From positions 1,860,001-1,924,000 of the forward strand of contig NZ_CP058910.1 of assembly GCF_013415885.1 (NCBI RefSeq): a stretch of 64,000 bases of DNA. The letters are read 5' to 3'. Numbering within the stretch: position 1 is the first letter of the stretch; each line of letters begins with the position of its first letter. Below the pieces are notes generated by a model. The model did not search any database. It saw only the letters and a program-made list of their open reading frames with translations, and was not told the origin of the DNA. Below are positions 316 to 46,731 of this stretch, piece after piece. Source of the DNA: Halosimplex rubrum. Its GTDB lineage: Archaea; Halobacteriota; Halobacteria; Halobacteriales; Haloarculaceae. A program made the position numbers and the translations under genes.

Positions 316-1854
316 TCAGATCGCCTCCAGGGCCGCCTCGTAGTCGTCCGTGTCCGCGAGCTCGCACGCCTCCTCACGCAGTTCGGCCTCGCGAGAGTCC
401 GGCAGCGAACTGCCGAGAGCGGCGAGCTTCTGATCGATCTCCTTGATGCGTTCGCGGCCCTCGTCTTCGAGCGCCGCAGTGTTGCCGCCACCCCCACCGC
501 CACCAGACTGGACGTCCGGTGCAGGGTCGTCGGCGAGATCCTCGTCGAGGTCGTCGAAGCGCTCGCGAAGTTCTGCGAGCTCGAACCGACTGACGAAGTC
601 GTCCTCGTCGAGGGTGGAGTTGTGGTCGGCGAGTCGGGCAGCGTAGGCCCGCTTGGCCTCTTCGACCTCTTCCTCCAGTTCCGCGACGGTCTCCTCTTTC
701 GCCTCCAGCTCCGCCTGGAGGGACTCGATCTCTTCGTCCTTCTCGTCGACGCGCTCCAGCAGCGCTTCGACGTCGTGTCCGTTGCCGTCCCCGTTGTCGG
801 GGTCGTTGGATCCGTTATTCATGTCTGTCGTGTCCGTAGGTTCGTCATCGGCCGATGCATCGGCGCCGGCGCCGCCCAGGACCTCGCCCTCGGGAGTGGA
901 TCCGTCAGCAGGGTCATCGGGGCCTGTGCCGGCCGCCAGTTCAGCGACCGCGCCGGCGACGGCCTTGACATCGAGGTCCGACGCCAACGCCGCCATCTCC
1001 GCCTCGGCGTCTGTCGCCAGCCTCTCCGGGTCGATCGGAGGCGTCGAGAAGGCGTCGTTGAGCGGGCGGAGTTTGCCGTGTAGGTCCTCGCGGGAGGCGC
1101 TTCCCCGCGGACCGACACTGTAGGCCGCGGCGACGTTGCCCCGCCGCAGGTAGCCGTCCGAATCGACTACCGGGTACGACGAGGCCGATTTCGTATCGGC
1201 GTCGAAGAGGTGGTGAGGTTCGTAGTCGTCATTCGGGATGGCGCTCTCGTCGAGCTTGCCGCCACGCGTCCCGCGATATCGGACGCCGGACTCGGTCGTG
1301 TAGGCGTTTAGCTCAGCCCCCGTGTCCAGCACGTCGACGATGTCGCCAGCCGAGAGGGCTGCGACGGCGGGGTTGGACTCGGCCGGCCCCGGCGCCGTGT
1401 AGTTGCCAGCGCTGGCGCCCTTCTCAGGCGTCGCGAGGCCCGTGTACTCGTAGCCGCGCATGATGACCGCGCCGGTGTCCTCATGCCGTTCGACATCCGA
1501 TGCGTTCCCCGCCTCGATCGAAACCTCGCGATCGCCACGTGACAACTCCGTCGCGATCGTCTCGTCTTCGAGACCGGCCTCGTAGACTACACCAACACCG
1601 TCCTCGTAGGCGGCCCGTAGCACAGTCCCGATAGCCTCCCGGTCGCCGTCACCGTGCGACCGGAAGACGGTTCGGCCCTCGAGTGTTGCTGCGGCGGCTT
1701 CGACCTCCTCGGCCGGCCAGTACTTCGGACTGTTCTTGCCGATCGTGAGTTCGTCCTCGCCGTGAGCGACGCCGTGAACGATGTGCTCGTAGTCGTCGCG
1801 GTCGCTGTCGGCGAGGTGGGCGATGCGGCTCTGGGTCGTGGATGTAGTGGACAT
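316..1854 (-). CDS. Prohead maturation protease fused to scaffold-like coiled coil
   Basis: This 512-residue acidic protein lies between the Mu gpF-like gene and the decoration protein, the standard place of the head protease and scaffold. The N-terminal part (about 20-150) has features of viral prohead proteases: GKNSPKYWPAEEV, an internal FRSHGDGD and later a DREVSIEAGN strand followed by MRGYEYTGLA. Such proteases use a His/Ser or His/Asp pair; H67 in RSHGD is a candidate, but catalytic residues cannot be fixed here. After a linker rich in D, G and N (about 300-350), residues 350-450 are strongly heptad-like and charged (ERVDEKDEEIESLQAELEAK), typical of scaffolding. Proteolysis of its own scaffold during capsid maturation is the likely role, inferred from position and architecture. 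Confidence 0.65.
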   Translation of the reverse strand: MSTTSTTQSRIAHLADSDRDDYEHIVHGVAHGEDELTIGKNSPKYWPAEEVEAAAATLEGRTVFRSHGDGDREAIGTVLRAAYEDGVGVVYEAGLEDETIATELSRGDREVSIEAGNASDVERHEDTGAVIMRGYEYTGLATPEKGASAGNYTAPGPAESNPAVAALSAGDIVDVLDTGAELNAYTTESGVRYRGTRGGKLDESAIPNDDYEPHHLFDADTKSASSYPVVDSDGYLRRGNVAAAYSVGPRGSASREDLHGKLRPLNDAFSTPPIDPERLATDAEAEMAALASDLDVKAVAGAVAELAAGTGPDDPADGSTPEGEVLGGAGADASADDEPTDTTDMNNGSNDPDNGDGNGHDVEALLERVDEKDEEIESLQAELEAKEETVAELEEEVEEAKRAYAARLADHNSTLDEDDFVSRFELAELRERFDDLDEDLADDPAPDVQSGGGGGGGNTAALEDEGRERIKEIDQKLAALGSSLPDSREAELREEACELADTDDYEAALEAI

Positions 1855-1875
1855 GTTGTGCTGGCCTCCAGTCGG

Positions 1876-2811
1876 TTATCCGATGACCGGCAGGATCGTA
1901 CACCGGCAGTTCGGATGCGCCGGCGGAGATAGCCGGTACTCGCCGGCAAGGTGGTCCGGCTCGTCACCCGACGGCTCGAACGTGAACGTCCCAGTCCTGA
2001 ACTCCGAGATGGAGTATTCGTCGCCGTCGAGCGTGGAGCAGATGGGGCAGACGCGACTGTCGTCGGCATCTGACCACTCGCCGTGGCGGACGGTGTCGGC
2101 GCCGGCGCGCTCGTATCGGTCGAGCGTCGCTTCCGTGTGACTGTGGATGACTTCCGTCCGGGCGAGCGTCCGAAGCCGAGTGTTCGTGATGGAGTCGATC
2201 TCATCGGTGAGCCGGGACGCCATCTGCCGTGGGTTCTCGCCGGCTTCCAGACCGCTGGCAAGTTCCTGGCGGATCGTCGTCGCCATGTCGTCGGTGACGC
2301 TGTCGAGGTTCTCGTAGGTCCGCATGTACAGCTTCCGGAGATGGCTGCGGGCGACTGGCAACTGTACGATCGCCTCGGGCTGACGCGTCTCCGTGCTGAC
2401 GCCCTGCTGCTGGAGACGCCCGGTCGCCTGCTGCCAGGCTTTCAGATAGGCCCGGCGAATGTACTCCGCTGTCCAGTGGTCGCCGCCGCGGACCGACTGG
2501 GAGGACATGGCGACCAGTAGCTCATCCCGAAGCACCTCGCGGAACCACTGCTCGAACTCCCGGAGGAGCCCGTCGCGGTCTTGTCGGGGAAACGTCTCTC
2601 GGGGCTCGGCCAACTTGGCCTGGTCGCGCGCAGTCAGGCCGAGAGCGTCGTTTTTGTAGCCGACGGTCTTGCGAACCAGCCCGCGGACACGATCGGCGCG
2701 GCCGTAGGAGCTTGCCCTCCGACCGCCGATGGCAGCGAGGAAGTCCGCCTCGATCGAGTCAGTCCCAGACGGTTGGGCGAGGCGAGCGGACGTTGTCGTG
2801 GTCACGCTCAC
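1876..2811 (-). CDS. Head morphogenesis protein, Mu gpF / SPP1 gp7 family
   Basis: This 311-residue protein has the diagnostic C-terminal signature of the Mu F-like minor head proteins: ARTEVIHSHTEA (about 217-228), a paired-cysteine segment SRVCPICSTLDG (about 250-260) and the terminal PPAHPNCRCTILPV. These Cys/His residues form the conserved zinc-like core of the fold. The N-terminal two thirds is helical and variable, as usual. Members are packaged with the portal as minor capsid components and may travel with the DNA. The ATG overlaps the portal stop by 4 bases, so translation is probably coupled to the portal gene. Length and position are typical, and the assignment is firm. Confidence 0.9.
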   Translation of the reverse strand: MSVTTTTSARLAQPSGTDSIEADFLAAIGGRRASSYGRADRVRGLVRKTVGYKNDALGLTARDQAKLAEPRETFPRQDRDGLLREFEQWFREVLRDELLVAMSSQSVRGGDHWTAEYIRRAYLKAWQQATGRLQQQGVSTETRQPEAIVQLPVARSHLRKLYMRTYENLDSVTDDMATTIRQELASGLEAGENPRQMASRLTDEIDSITNTRLRTLARTEVIHSHTEATLDRYERAGADTVRHGEWSDADDSRVCPICSTLDGDEYSISEFRTGTFTFEPSGDEPDHLAGEYRLSPPAHPNCRCTILPVIG

Positions 2812-4352
2812 GCTTCCCCTCCCTCAACCTCTGCCGGGTCAGGCGGCTCGCTGCCGTACGCGTTCTCGAAGGACTCCCGGACGCGCGGGTCTGACTCGTC
2901 GAGTTGCCCGAGATCAGCACCACCGGCGCCGCCGAGGACTTCCTCAGCGTCGAGCCCGAGTACCGTGTCGAGTAGATACTCCGGCGGGAAGACAGACTGA
3001 GGCGACCCGCCGGCCCCGGCGTAGTGTTTGAGCCCCTGCATGAACGAGACGAACGCCTCGGCGTCGAAGCTCTCGCGCTCCAGCGGGTTGTCCGACTCGC
3101 GGGGCGCGATGACGAGTTCGACCGACGGGATGTCAGCCTCGTCGTCGAGCATCTCCTCGGCCTTGCGCTGCAGTACGCCCGTGATCTCCTGGGCGAGGTC
3201 AGTTCGCCAGTCCGAGAGTTCGCGCTGGTAGTCTTCGGACTGCTCGCTCGTCACGTCGCGGTTGATCTCTCCTTCGAAGCCGATGCGGTAGATGGGGACC
3301 GGGAACGCCGACAGCACGTACTCGATCTCCTGTTTGAGCGTGCTGTCGATATCGGGCATCGTCCCGCCGATGGCGGTCGCGTCCACGTCGTAGTTCACGA
3401 CGTTGACCTTCTCCGGATTCGACGGGTCGAACCCGTTCAGCAGTTTCTGGGCTTCGTCCTCGTCGTCGGTCGCGACCTGGGCGACCCAGTGCTGGTAGGC
3501 CACGGCCGTCAGCGCCTGGTCGAGGTCCGCCCACTGCTGGCGGATCGAACTGGCCCGGTCGTAGACGCTGGCCGTCGCCGGAAGCCCGAACAGATCGCCG
3601 GTGTCCGCGTCGTGGGCTATCTTCAGCGCGTCGTCCTGGGCGAGCCGGACCTCGTTGTCGTCCCACGACCCGATTGCGTCGTCGTATTGCACGTAGCACG
3701 CCGTGTCCCCAGCCGCCGTCTCCGGCAGTGTGTCCCGGCTCTTGTCCGACGAGCGCCCAGGGAGCGCGAACGAGAATCCCGAGTCGTAATCGCTATCCTC
3801 GGATGTGTCGTCCGGCCGGAGGAGAATGTTCTTCCCTTCTCGCGTGTAGGCCGTGACCGTCTCGACCTTGATGGGACGGATGCCCATGATGCGCTCCTGC
3901 TCGACGCGGTCGTCGTAGACGATCTCCGTCATCCCGGTGCCACGCCGGCCGATGCAGTCCTTGATGAGCTTCTCCAGCACGTCGCTGAGGTCGTGACCGA
4001 ACTCCCCGTTGACGATGCCCGCTCCGCCAAGCCATGCTTCGAGGGCGTCGTCGAGGTCCTCGCCACGGAGGTCCTCGTCGTAGTACTCCTCGCTGACGGT
4101 CGGGATCTCGTCGCCGTCGACGTTGACCCGCTGGCCCGGCTCCAGTACGTCCGAGGTGAACGTCTGAGTGGGGATGCGGATGAGCGGGTTCTCCTGGTAC
4201 TCTGTGACCCAGTCCCCGATGTCCCCCCGCTCGGGCTCTTTCCGGTCGACGTCGAGCGTGGTCGCCCACGCGTCGAACTCACTGTCCCGCGCCTGCGGGT
4301 CCGGTTCGCCATCGCGAGCCAGTGCGGCCCTGATTGATTTCGTGAATTCCAT
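2808..4352 (-). CDS. Portal protein
   Basis: This 514-residue protein lies directly between the large terminase and the Mu gpF-like protein, where the portal is nearly always found. It has the profile of viral portals: a mixed N-terminal clip/wing region, a long helical stem and crown (RASSIRQQWADLDQALTAVA at about 275-295; LKQEIEYVLSAFPVPIYRIG at about 350-370) and an acidic C-terminal tail. The VPIYRIGFEGE segment followed by a helical stretch with EDYQRELSDW matches the tunnel-loop/long-helix region seen in SPP1 gp6-like portals. I chose the ATG at 4352, two bases after the terminase stop; a longer upstream frame would overlap the terminase gene and begins with non-acidic residues. Confidence 0.8.
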   Translation of the reverse strand: MEFTKSIRAALARDGEPDPQARDSEFDAWATTLDVDRKEPERGDIGDWVTEYQENPLIRIPTQTFTSDVLEPGQRVNVDGDEIPTVSEEYYDEDLRGEDLDDALEAWLGGAGIVNGEFGHDLSDVLEKLIKDCIGRRGTGMTEIVYDDRVEQERIMGIRPIKVETVTAYTREGKNILLRPDDTSEDSDYDSGFSFALPGRSSDKSRDTLPETAAGDTACYVQYDDAIGSWDDNEVRLAQDDALKIAHDADTGDLFGLPATASVYDRASSIRQQWADLDQALTAVAYQHWVAQVATDDEDEAQKLLNGFDPSNPEKVNVVNYDVDATAIGGTMPDIDSTLKQEIEYVLSAFPVPIYRIGFEGEINRDVTSEQSEDYQRELSDWRTDLAQEITGVLQRKAEEMLDDEADIPSVELVIAPRESDNPLERESFDAEAFVSFMQGLKHYAGAGGSPQSVFPPEYLLDTVLGLDAEEVLGGAGGADLGQLDESDPRVRESFENAYGSEPPDPAEVEGGEA

Positions 4353-45010: not shown

Positions 45011-45370
45011 ATGATCGGTCGTCGGTCGGTGTTGCAGCTCCTCACGGCGCTCGGAACTGTTGGGGCGACCGCTGGCGCCGGCGCGGCCACGGATGCCTCG
45101 TCGCCCCCTGTCGAGAGTCGCGACGCTCCGTCGATAACGAGCCCGGCGGACGTGGCCGACCAGGAACAGGACCAGCCTGTCGGGACCGAAGCGTTGCTAT
45201 CGTATCTTGAGGCCAAGTACGGCGACATGCTCACCGAGGCGGACCTCTCGACGTTGGAGGAGGAAGTCGCCGGGAACATCTCCACCGCACAGGCGCTCGA
45301 CGACACCGCGCTCGCTAACGGGGACGATATGGCGTTGCGGTTCGAGCCCTACCGGGGGGAGTGGGACTGA
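45011..45370 (+). CDS. Tat-signal small protein, amidase partner candidate
   Basis: This 119-residue protein starts MIGRRSVLQLLTALGTVGAT: RR at 4-5 followed by a hydrophobic stretch and an AGA-type cleavage region near 22-26, a twin-arginine signal. After an acidic linker (about 30-58) the mature part reads LLSYLEAKYGDMLTEADLST and then LANGDDMALRFEPYRGEWD. That resembles the short helical partners encoded before some amidases (the AtzG-like type, with a terminal LxNxxEP.F.F motif). Its stop overlaps the amidase ATG (TGATG), so the two are made together. If so, it may ferry the amidase out as a hitchhiker; this is inference. Confidence 0.65.
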   Translation: MIGRRSVLQLLTALGTVGATAGAGAATDASSPPVESRDAPSITSPADVADQEQDQPVGTEALLSYLEAKYGDMLTEADLSTLEEEVAGNISTAQALDDTALANGDDMALRFEPYRGEWD

Positions 45371-46731
45371 TGCCGGTCTCCGACGAGGACCTATTCGATA
45401 CGGTCCCGGAGCTGGGTGAGAAGCTCAGAGACGGCGAGTTCACGTCCCGGGAACTGACGGAGGCGTACCTCGACCGACTGGAGGAGATCGGACCGAAGCT
45501 GAACGCGGTTGTGACGACGACCGAGGAGCGCGCTCTGGAGTACGCCGACCGGGCCGACGCGGAGCTGGCCAACGGGGTCGATCGCGGGCCGCTCCACGGA
45601 ATCCCTTACGGACTCAAGGACCTGGTTGCAGTCGACGGGTACGAGACGACGTGGGGCGCGGCCCCGTATCGCGATCAGGAGTTCGACTACAACGCCGAGA
45701 TCGTCGAGCGGTTCGACGACGCGGGCGCGGTGCTGGTCGCGAAGCTCGCGATGGTCGAACTTGCCGGAGGCATGGGGTACTCTCCCGACGCGATGAGCTT
45801 CACTGGCACCGCCTATACGCCCTGGAACCTCGACGTCTGGAGCGGTGGCTCCTCCAGCGGCCCCGGGGCGGCGACGGCTGCCGGCCTGGTCGGTTTCTCG
45901 ATCGGCTCGGAGACGTGGGGATCGATCTTCTCCCCGTCCGGAAACTGTGGGCTGTCGGGACTGCGACCGACCTATGGCGCGATCAGCAGGTACGGCGCGA
46001 TGGCGCTGTCGTACACGATGGACAAGCTTGGACCGATGTGTCGGTCCGCGGAAGGTTGTGAGATGGTCTTCGAGGCTATCGCCGGGCCGGACCCGAAAGA
46101 TCACACCTCCCTCGACCGGATGGACACGATCCGGAGCCTCGAACCCAGTGACCCCGTCCGGCTGGCGACGCTGGATCTGGAGGCCGATGACACGAACTTT
46201 CAGGACTCGCTGGAGACGCTCCGGGAGTTCGCCGAAATCGAGGAGATTTCCCTGCCCGACCTGCCCTACGGCGAGACGGCGTCGCTCACTCTCTTCGCGG
46301 AGGCGGGCTCTGTGTTCGACGATCTCATCGAGTCCGGCGACGTGCAGGACCTCACCTCCCCCCAGGGGAGCATCGGCGGGTACGCCTACGACACGATCCT
46401 GGCCAAAGACTACATCACAGCCAACCGAATCCGGCGTAAGATCCAAGTGCAACTCGACGAGGCGATGGCGCCGTACGACGCGGTTGTCCTGCCGAATCGG
46501 GCGCTGGGCGGCGCGGCAAACATCGCCGGGCTGCCCGGAATCTCCATCCCGAACGGGTTCGACGAAGAGGGCGTCCCGACGGCACTGATATTCACTGGTC
46601 GGGCCTTCTCCGATCTCAAACTCGCGGAGATCGCCAAAGAGTATCAGTCACGGGCCGAGGGCGTCGACTACACCGAACTGCTCGACATGCCGGTCTATCA
46701 GGACGAGGACGCGGGAGCGGCGAGTAGCTGA
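45370..46731 (+). CDS. Amidase signature family hydrolase
   Basis: This 453-residue Ser-cisSer-Lys hydrolase has Lys in GIPYGLKDLVAV (about 80-91), the glycine/serine loop VWSGGSSSGPGAATAAG (about 157-173) with the cis-Ser and catalytic Ser in GSETWGSIFSPSGNCG (about 179-194). A GLRPTYGAIS segment follows. It resembles GatA and allophanate or biuret hydrolases; there is no signal peptide of its own. It is shorter than GatA (about 480) and has no GatB/C partner here. Base composition is a little less GC-rich than the neighbours. Linked to the Tat-signal protein just upstream, so extracellular or membrane-side amide hydrolysis is possible. Confidence 0.88.
   Translation: MPVSDEDLFDTVPELGEKLRDGEFTSRELTEAYLDRLEEIGPKLNAVVTTTEERALEYADRADAELANGVDRGPLHGIPYGLKDLVAVDGYETTWGAAPYRDQEFDYNAEIVERFDDAGAVLVAKLAMVELAGGMGYSPDAMSFTGTAYTPWNLDVWSGGSSSGPGAATAAGLVGFSIGSETWGSIFSPSGNCGLSGLRPTYGAISRYGAMALSYTMDKLGPMCRSAEGCEMVFEAIAGPDPKDHTSLDRMDTIRSLEPSDPVRLATLDLEADDTNFQDSLETLREFAEIEEISLPDLPYGETASLTLFAEAGSVFDDLIESGDVQDLTSPQGSIGGYAYDTILAKDYITANRIRRKIQVQLDEAMAPYDAVVLPNRALGGAANIAGLPGISIPNGFDEEGVPTALIFTGRAFSDLKLAEIAKEYQSRAEGVDYTELLDMPVYQDEDAGAASS

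Follow-up and report, generated by a model that had tools for sequence, protein, structure and literature searches.

A Tat signal on a GatC/AtzG-like small subunit probably marks a signal-less haloarchaeal amidase for export

Introduction

The Tat system transports folded cargo, which makes the subunit on which an enzyme folds a natural seat for a Tat signal. The nearest working parallel to the gene pair described here is Streptomyces MelC1/MelC2 compared with its sister operon MelD1/MelD2: the small upstream MelC1 helper carries a Tat signal and takes a signal-less tyrosinase outside, whereas the S. coelicolor MelD helper has no Tat signal and the enzyme stays inside (exceptions are named in S. 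griseus and S. scabies), and stop and start codons overlap in some MelC/MelD operons as they do in our pair (PMC2758597). Unlike our pair, MelC is a copper enzyme with a copper-loading helper. The folds of MelC1/MelC2 are unrelated to those of our pair.

The signal sits on the small subunit and the enzyme is the hitchhiker also in the FAD glucose dehydrogenase BcGDH, where the large alpha subunit needs a small Tat-bearing gamma subunit both to fold and to be secreted (PMC6719666), but BcGDH is a redox cofactor enzyme and its small subunit has five helices. Hitchhiker export with the signal on the small subunit is likewise described for PaoABC and HybO/HybC of E. coli in PMC4273604, and the hitchhiker idea recurs in PMC10924467; both E. 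coli enzymes are cofactor-bearing redox enzymes, unlike our amidase. Tat export with the signal on one partner only, which a preliminary description of the present locus had invoked as established, thus has precedents in MelC1/MelC2, BcGDH, and PaoABC.

Among amidase-signature enzymes, the comparison is with AtzG/AtzE, a 1-carboxybiuret hydrolase in which, as in our pair, the small-subunit gene precedes that of the dependent enzyme; AtzG is non-catalytic, the two proteins assemble into an obligate heterotetramer, and AtzE on its own is insoluble (PMC6219798). Unlike our small protein, which itself has no Pfam AtzG match, AtzG is not said to carry a Tat signal in the accessible part of that report. 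In the GatC/GatA pair of GatCAB, GatA is the nearest solved relative of our amidase, and the GatC model is not matched by our small protein. Among the titles and abstract openings listed in searches of the open-access literature, we found no description of a Tat-exported two-subunit amidase-signature enzyme.

Here, we analyze two overlapping genes in a stretch of 64,000 nucleotides (the window) from a haloarchaeal genome of 4.48 Mb in a single contig. The preliminary description had read them as a secreted two-subunit amidase in which only a small partner bears the signal.

Results

The small partner gene (45011..45370, + strand) is an ORF of 119 aa plus stop, whose homologs lie directly upstream of the amidase in all 14 genomes of the order that have the amidase, the window's included. 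The translated ORF has the N-terminus MIGRRSVLQLLTALGTVGATAGAGAA, opening with MIGRRSVLQLLTALG. Residues 1–27 (the end is approximate) make up a Tat-type signal peptide (45011..45091, +) with the twin-arginine codons of residues 4–5 at 45020..45025 (+); a fast-evolving linker (residues 28–55; 45092..45175, +) leads to a putative AtzG/GatC-like domain (residues 56–119; 45176..45367, +), in which two predicted helices are followed by an extended tail with the end MALRFEPYRGEWD. The TGA of the small gene (45368–45370) and the ATG of the amidase (45370–45372) have one base in common, so that the overlap of stop and start noted before is a TGATG (45368..45372, +); this motif occurs in 8 of the 13 haloarchaeal pairs listed, the window's own counted, and also in L003.

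The start of the small gene had to be checked because its reading frame stays open far upstream (a 470-aa ORF). In comparison with Halosimplex carlsbadense (L063, 96% over 207 amidase residues), constraint is strongest in the signal (dN = 0.038, dS = 0.608, dN/dS about 0.06), followed by the small domain (dN = 0.068, dS = 0.481, dN/dS about 0.14) and the linker (dN = 0.25, dS = 0.50, dN/dS about 0.5), in what is a comparison of few sites from one genome pair. The low ratio indicates that the signal is translated, conserved, and needed, which speaks against an internal start. Furthermore, a test for RR plus a hydrophobic stretch was passed by all 16 distinct haloarchaeal partners among the matches listed. 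As a control, 31 of 516 neighboring ORFs passed from their first start (0 of 46 at haloarchaeal loci), and 49 of 516 (haloarchaeal: 3 of 46) when the start was allowed to be any M or V among residues 1–60, the variant nearer to the way the partners were judged; the control set includes spurious frames. The ORF, the dN/dS, and the 16 haloarchaeal partners together confirm the twin-arginine signal that the preliminary description had seen on the 119-residue protein.

RefSeq places the start of the Halapricum desulfuricans small gene (L152:5801-5989, NZ_CP064792.1) at an internal GTG, which leaves 62 aa and loses the Tat signal; the Haladaptatus record retains a signal-bearing 134-aa form. If translation began inside the small gene, as the Halapricum annotation would have it, there would be no signal and the enzyme would be an ordinary cytoplasmic AtzEG-like one; against the constraint on the signal, the RR in every one of the 16 distinct haloarchaeal partners among the matches listed, and the 134-aa Haladaptatus form, we find this reading scarcely credible.

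The small protein has no cysteine and hence no lipid anchor, and none of the Tat-type partners among the matches listed matched a simple lipobox pattern. The N-terminus might still be a Tat-like anchor that stays in the membrane and holds the amidase there, on the cytoplasmic or the outer side, with no release, and the linker is long and fast-changing, as a tether might be. A plain anchor would, however, need no RR, which is found in 50 of the 53 distinct Tat-type partners among the matches listed (RK in the other three), and several of the bacterial signals in the same set finish, by eye, in AxA-like sites; we therefore regard an anchor as unlikely and an export signal as the better reading of the N-terminus.

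The amidase-signature enzyme (453 aa; 45370..46731, +) matches PF01425 (Amidase) at 5.5e-73 with 246.9 bits against a cut-off of 27. Lys83 (45616..45618, +), Ser161 (45850..45852, +), and Ser185 in GSETWGSI (45922..45924, +) are invariant in an alignment of 14 haloarchaeal amidases, and from GatA/FAAH we take them to be the catalytic Lys, the cis-Ser, and the nucleophile, respectively. Its best solved relatives are GatA (4wj3_A, 2.2e-51), and the AtzE chain 6c62_A matches at 1e-35. We know of no cofactor in this amidase family. A segment of about 21 residues before the GLPG motif, present in 12 other haloarchaeal amidases, is missing from those of the window (about 46500; columns 394-414 of alignment A1) and L003.

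The amidase had been described as lacking a signal, and this extends to the family: among 94 loci (the best 80 of 544 plus the 14 order loci; the amidases of L118 and L123 lack their N-terminus because the contig ends there), no amidase had RR, RK, or KR with a hydrophobic stretch at its N-terminus, and none gained an RR signal when every alternative in-frame start within 130 codons upstream was tried. The pair thus has the marks of hitchhiker export, with a twin-arginine signal on one subunit and none on the passenger (0 of these 94); assembly before export is suggested by the predicted docking of a relative (L114) and by fusions, both taken up below. The neighbors gave no clue to the substrate, the largest recurring family among 551 flanking ORFs, after the small partner, being found in seven loci.

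In 392 genomes of the order, a draw from a larger group, the amidase was found in 14 (E ≤ 1e-60), and the small protein in the same 14 (E ≤ 2.8e-8), directly upstream every time. The hypergeometric chance of a 14 of 14 overlap in 392 genomes, treated as independent, is 5e-26, and the pairing is thus no accident. At E ≤ 0.01, small-protein matches occur in 52 of the 392 genomes, the weaker ones (E from 3e-5 to 0.01) in genomes with no amidase at E ≤ 1e-60. The best of these, L030, is a truncated copy in which unrelated sequence follows a signal and the first part of the domain, and was discarded as a partner without amidase. Within the window's genus, two further genomes have no amidase at E ≤ 1e-60. 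In H. desulfuricans (L003) and Haladaptatus (L004), the pair is found on a plasmid record, which fits patchy presence and transfer.

To cover the wider family, 84,980 species genomes were scanned with the 14-sequence alignment, and the best 80 of 544 confirmed loci were added to the 14 order loci (94 loci, of which L013/L052 and L014/L070 are duplicates, leaving 92 distinct). A small-domain profile found the partner in 80 of the 94, always upstream on the same strand and within 130 bases of the amidase except in L100 (646 bases). Among these 80 partners, 52 have RR plus a hydrophobic stretch, three have RK, 24 have no signal and are only 58–80 aa long, and one is masked by Ns (L062); counted by distinct loci, 53 of 92 have a Tat-type partner (50 RR, three RK). 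The RK partners (L080, L088, and L098) are of Eremiobacterota type, and their signals are Tat-like apart from having RK instead of RR.

On a tree of the 92 distinct amidases (best 80 of 544 plus the 14 order loci, L013 and L014 left out), the 24 with a signal-less partner fall on one side of a branch (SH-aLRT = 98), and all 53 Tat-type amidases together with 11 that have no adjacent partner fall on the other; this tree, like all those below, is a quick one without bootstrap. Among the matches listed, the non-Tat kind is found in Bathyarchaeota, Chloroflexota, Thermomicrobiota, Rokubacteria, Nitrospinota, and one Deltaproteobacterium, and the Tat kind in haloarchaea, Planctomycetota, Acidobacteriota, Gemmatimonadota, and others. 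The haloarchaea form one clade inside the Tat side among these matches, which suggests that they may have acquired the pair from bacteria by transfer. Rooting on a single GatA, which sits on a very long branch, puts the non-Tat group at the base. When six proteobacterial amidases are used for rooting (83 rows, after removal of 17 loci that were near-copies or incomplete), the fused forms come out basal and the non-Tat clade is nested in the Tat group. The Tat/non-Tat split is the sole stable feature across the trees, and the direction of the switch varies with the outgroup.

The window's genome has three matches to TatC. Among the matches listed, TatC was matched in 49 of the 51 Tat-type genomes tested (of 53), the exceptions being those of L080 and L099, for which no completeness is given, and in 21 of the 24 non-Tat genomes, the three misses being Bathyarchaeota. 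The absence of the signal is thus mostly not due to lack of the Tat machine.

Eleven of the 94 loci (best 80 of 544 plus the 14 order loci) have no partner across 848 to 4000 upstream bases. Nine of the 11 genomes encode an RR-bearing small protein at another place (L127-L130, L132-L136), and by eye none of the longer frames within 1.5 kb after those nine genes is an amidase. In L048's genome no partner was found anywhere. L084's genome has no separate partner, but a 601-aa ORF (L137, identical to L141) that joins Tat signal, small domain, and amidase. In all, six ORFs from four genomes or records join a Tat signal and an amidase in one frame; besides L137, they are L142, L150, and one in L151, all three from NGEE_A_bin35, and one each in Novosphingobium MBES04 and Ideonella dechloratans. 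Each of them passes the RR test, and five match the small-domain family profile (23.7, 23.2, 12.8, 9.5, and 8.2 bits); the small domain of the Ideonella fusion was not matched by the profile, and a search among plasmids for further copies of its N-terminus returned only itself. Fusions of this kind are classic evidence that the parts act jointly in one compartment.

A further reading, that the small protein alone is exported and the amidase is active in the cytoplasm, would account for an amidase without a signal. It is difficult to reconcile with the fused forms, which are inseparable unless cut, with the non-Tat sisters, which retain the small domain alone as partner, with the predicted fold of a relative, in which both parts dock, and with AtzE, soluble only with AtzG (PMC6219798). 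We consider this reading very unlikely, and joint export of the two subunits remains the one we prefer.

Two observations concern the genes near such amidases. In L151 (G409:C164:6500-23500), Tat amidase fusions alternate in one cluster with ORFs that resemble secreted S9-type peptidases. In six of nine proteobacterial plasmid amidase regions (L153, L154, L158-L161), a hypothetical gene of 66-81 aa stands just upstream, overlapping the amidase or within two bases of its start; these six small proteins have no Tat signal by eye and no Pfam AtzG match.

The window's small domain, folded alone, gave helices at 5-19 and 22-44 and a loosely predicted tail (pLDDT 84, pTM 0.57). Foldseek and VIA-align returned weak rows and no significant PDB match for it, the GatC model 9a62_B standing third in both lists at a weak Z = 3.8 and rmsd = 7.8. 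When a profile of 71 small domains was run against solved structures, neither GatC nor AtzG appeared among the names of the chains listed at E ≤ 10. For the small protein itself, no Pfam match falls below E = 0.089 and NCBIfam gives none; in particular, it has no match to AtzG-like PF13318 (cut-off 24 bits) or GatC PF02686 (cut-off 23 bits), and a PF13318 search of the window's genome found nothing. Across the family, PF13318 is the most frequent match, reached at E ≤ 1 by 11 of the 71 members (best 2e-5) and with a best score of 18.1 among 30 proteins scanned singly, and PF02686 is reached at E ≤ 1 by five of 71 (best 0.091). The small-domain profile was also compared with the small proteins encoded upstream in the six proteobacterial plasmid regions, with an ambiguous outcome (hhalign probability 15%, E = 0.0018), those six themselves having no AtzG match. 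The window protein thus falls short of the Pfam cut-off for AtzG, and the structure and profile comparisons are weak or ambiguous. Like AtzG, the small gene stands directly upstream of the amidase (80 of 94 loci; best 80 of 544 plus the 14 order loci), and the sequences suggest a protein that acts like AtzG, and may belong with the AtzG-like group, rather than being AtzG. Of the likeness of its tail to AtzG-type partners proposed earlier, a weak family-wide trace survives in those 11 of 71 members, and the window protein itself shows none.

Structure prediction of the complex had been put forward as a check. It was carried out on an acidobacterial relative, the L114 pair, read through its natural 41-residue spacer and folded from an alignment of 71 rows with 16 other joined rows (15 read-through and one natural fusion); of the window pair, the small domain was folded, as described above. 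The model scored pLDDT 92 and pTM 0.91, with the small domain confident, its last residues less so (77 in block 51-60), and the spacer not confident. From the pTM formula we calculate a ceiling of about 0.86 if the small domain were unplaced, so the small domain is docked on the amidase in this model of a relative, as judged from scores rather than coordinates. The L114 fold aligns to GatA 2df4_A (Z = 51.6) and AtzE 6c62_A (Z = 47.3), and over 492-494 residues to plant fatty acid amide hydrolase (6dii_A, 8ey1_B) from residue 17 or 23; the other structural rows listed begin at residue 90-139. The L114 amidase part is no longer than about 475 residues, so that part of the small domain or spacer has to lie over the N-terminal region of the plant enzyme. 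Two alignments were discarded, A3 for low row identities and A4 for small-only rows laid on the amidase.

Discussion

The pairing, the RR signals, the split on the tree, selection on the signal, the distant partners, the fusions, and the docked fold of a relative support the proposal of a secreted two-subunit amidase with the Tat signal on one subunit, as far as sequences and models can. By these and by analogy with known systems, the overlapping genes very probably encode one two-subunit amidase for export, the enzyme leaving as a Tat hitchhiker by way of its AtzG/GatC-like subunit. It also seems rather likely that we are dealing with one amidase family, spread over haloarchaea and many bacterial phyla, in which a subunit of GatC/AtzG type sets the compartment: with a Tat signal on it the enzyme would be exported folded, and without one it would stay inside. 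For the window pair in particular, we infer the complex in vivo, its export, cleavage, and chemistry.

The small protein would be a non-catalytic GatC/AtzG-like subunit whose domain consists of a hairpin of two helices and an extended tail at the C-terminus, preceded by the twin-arginine signal and a flexible linker. Translational coupling at the TGATG would let both subunits meet in the cytoplasm, where the amidase may fold on its partner, if AtzE, insoluble without AtzG, is a guide; the hairpin and C-terminal tail would dock on the amidase, as predicted for the relative. TatC would then recognize the folded complex through the signal of the small subunit, and the complex would be moved out with the amidase as hitchhiker. 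Having no lipid anchor, it would be released, or kept by an uncleaved signal. Outside the cell, it would hydrolyze an amide, and scavenging of amide or peptide nitrogen is our guess at the purpose.

The hitchhiker precedents compared here are redox or copper enzymes, and the usual explanation for Tat in such cases is that their cofactors are loaded inside the cell. If the present reading is true, a hydrolase without a known cofactor is a Tat hitchhiker, which would suggest that the need of a partner for folding is reason enough. Tat hitchhiking would then have been built on the module of a tRNA amidotransferase, with a single address switch between two sister groups and with some forms carrying partner and enzyme as one exported chain. 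The family would offer a natural experiment, in which one enzyme occurs with partners that bear a Tat signal, lack one, are encoded elsewhere, or are fused to the enzyme. Judged by its own sequence, a signal-less amidase would pass for cytoplasmic, and a class of exported enzymes in haloarchaea, Planctomycetota, and Acidobacteriota may therefore easily have been overlooked.
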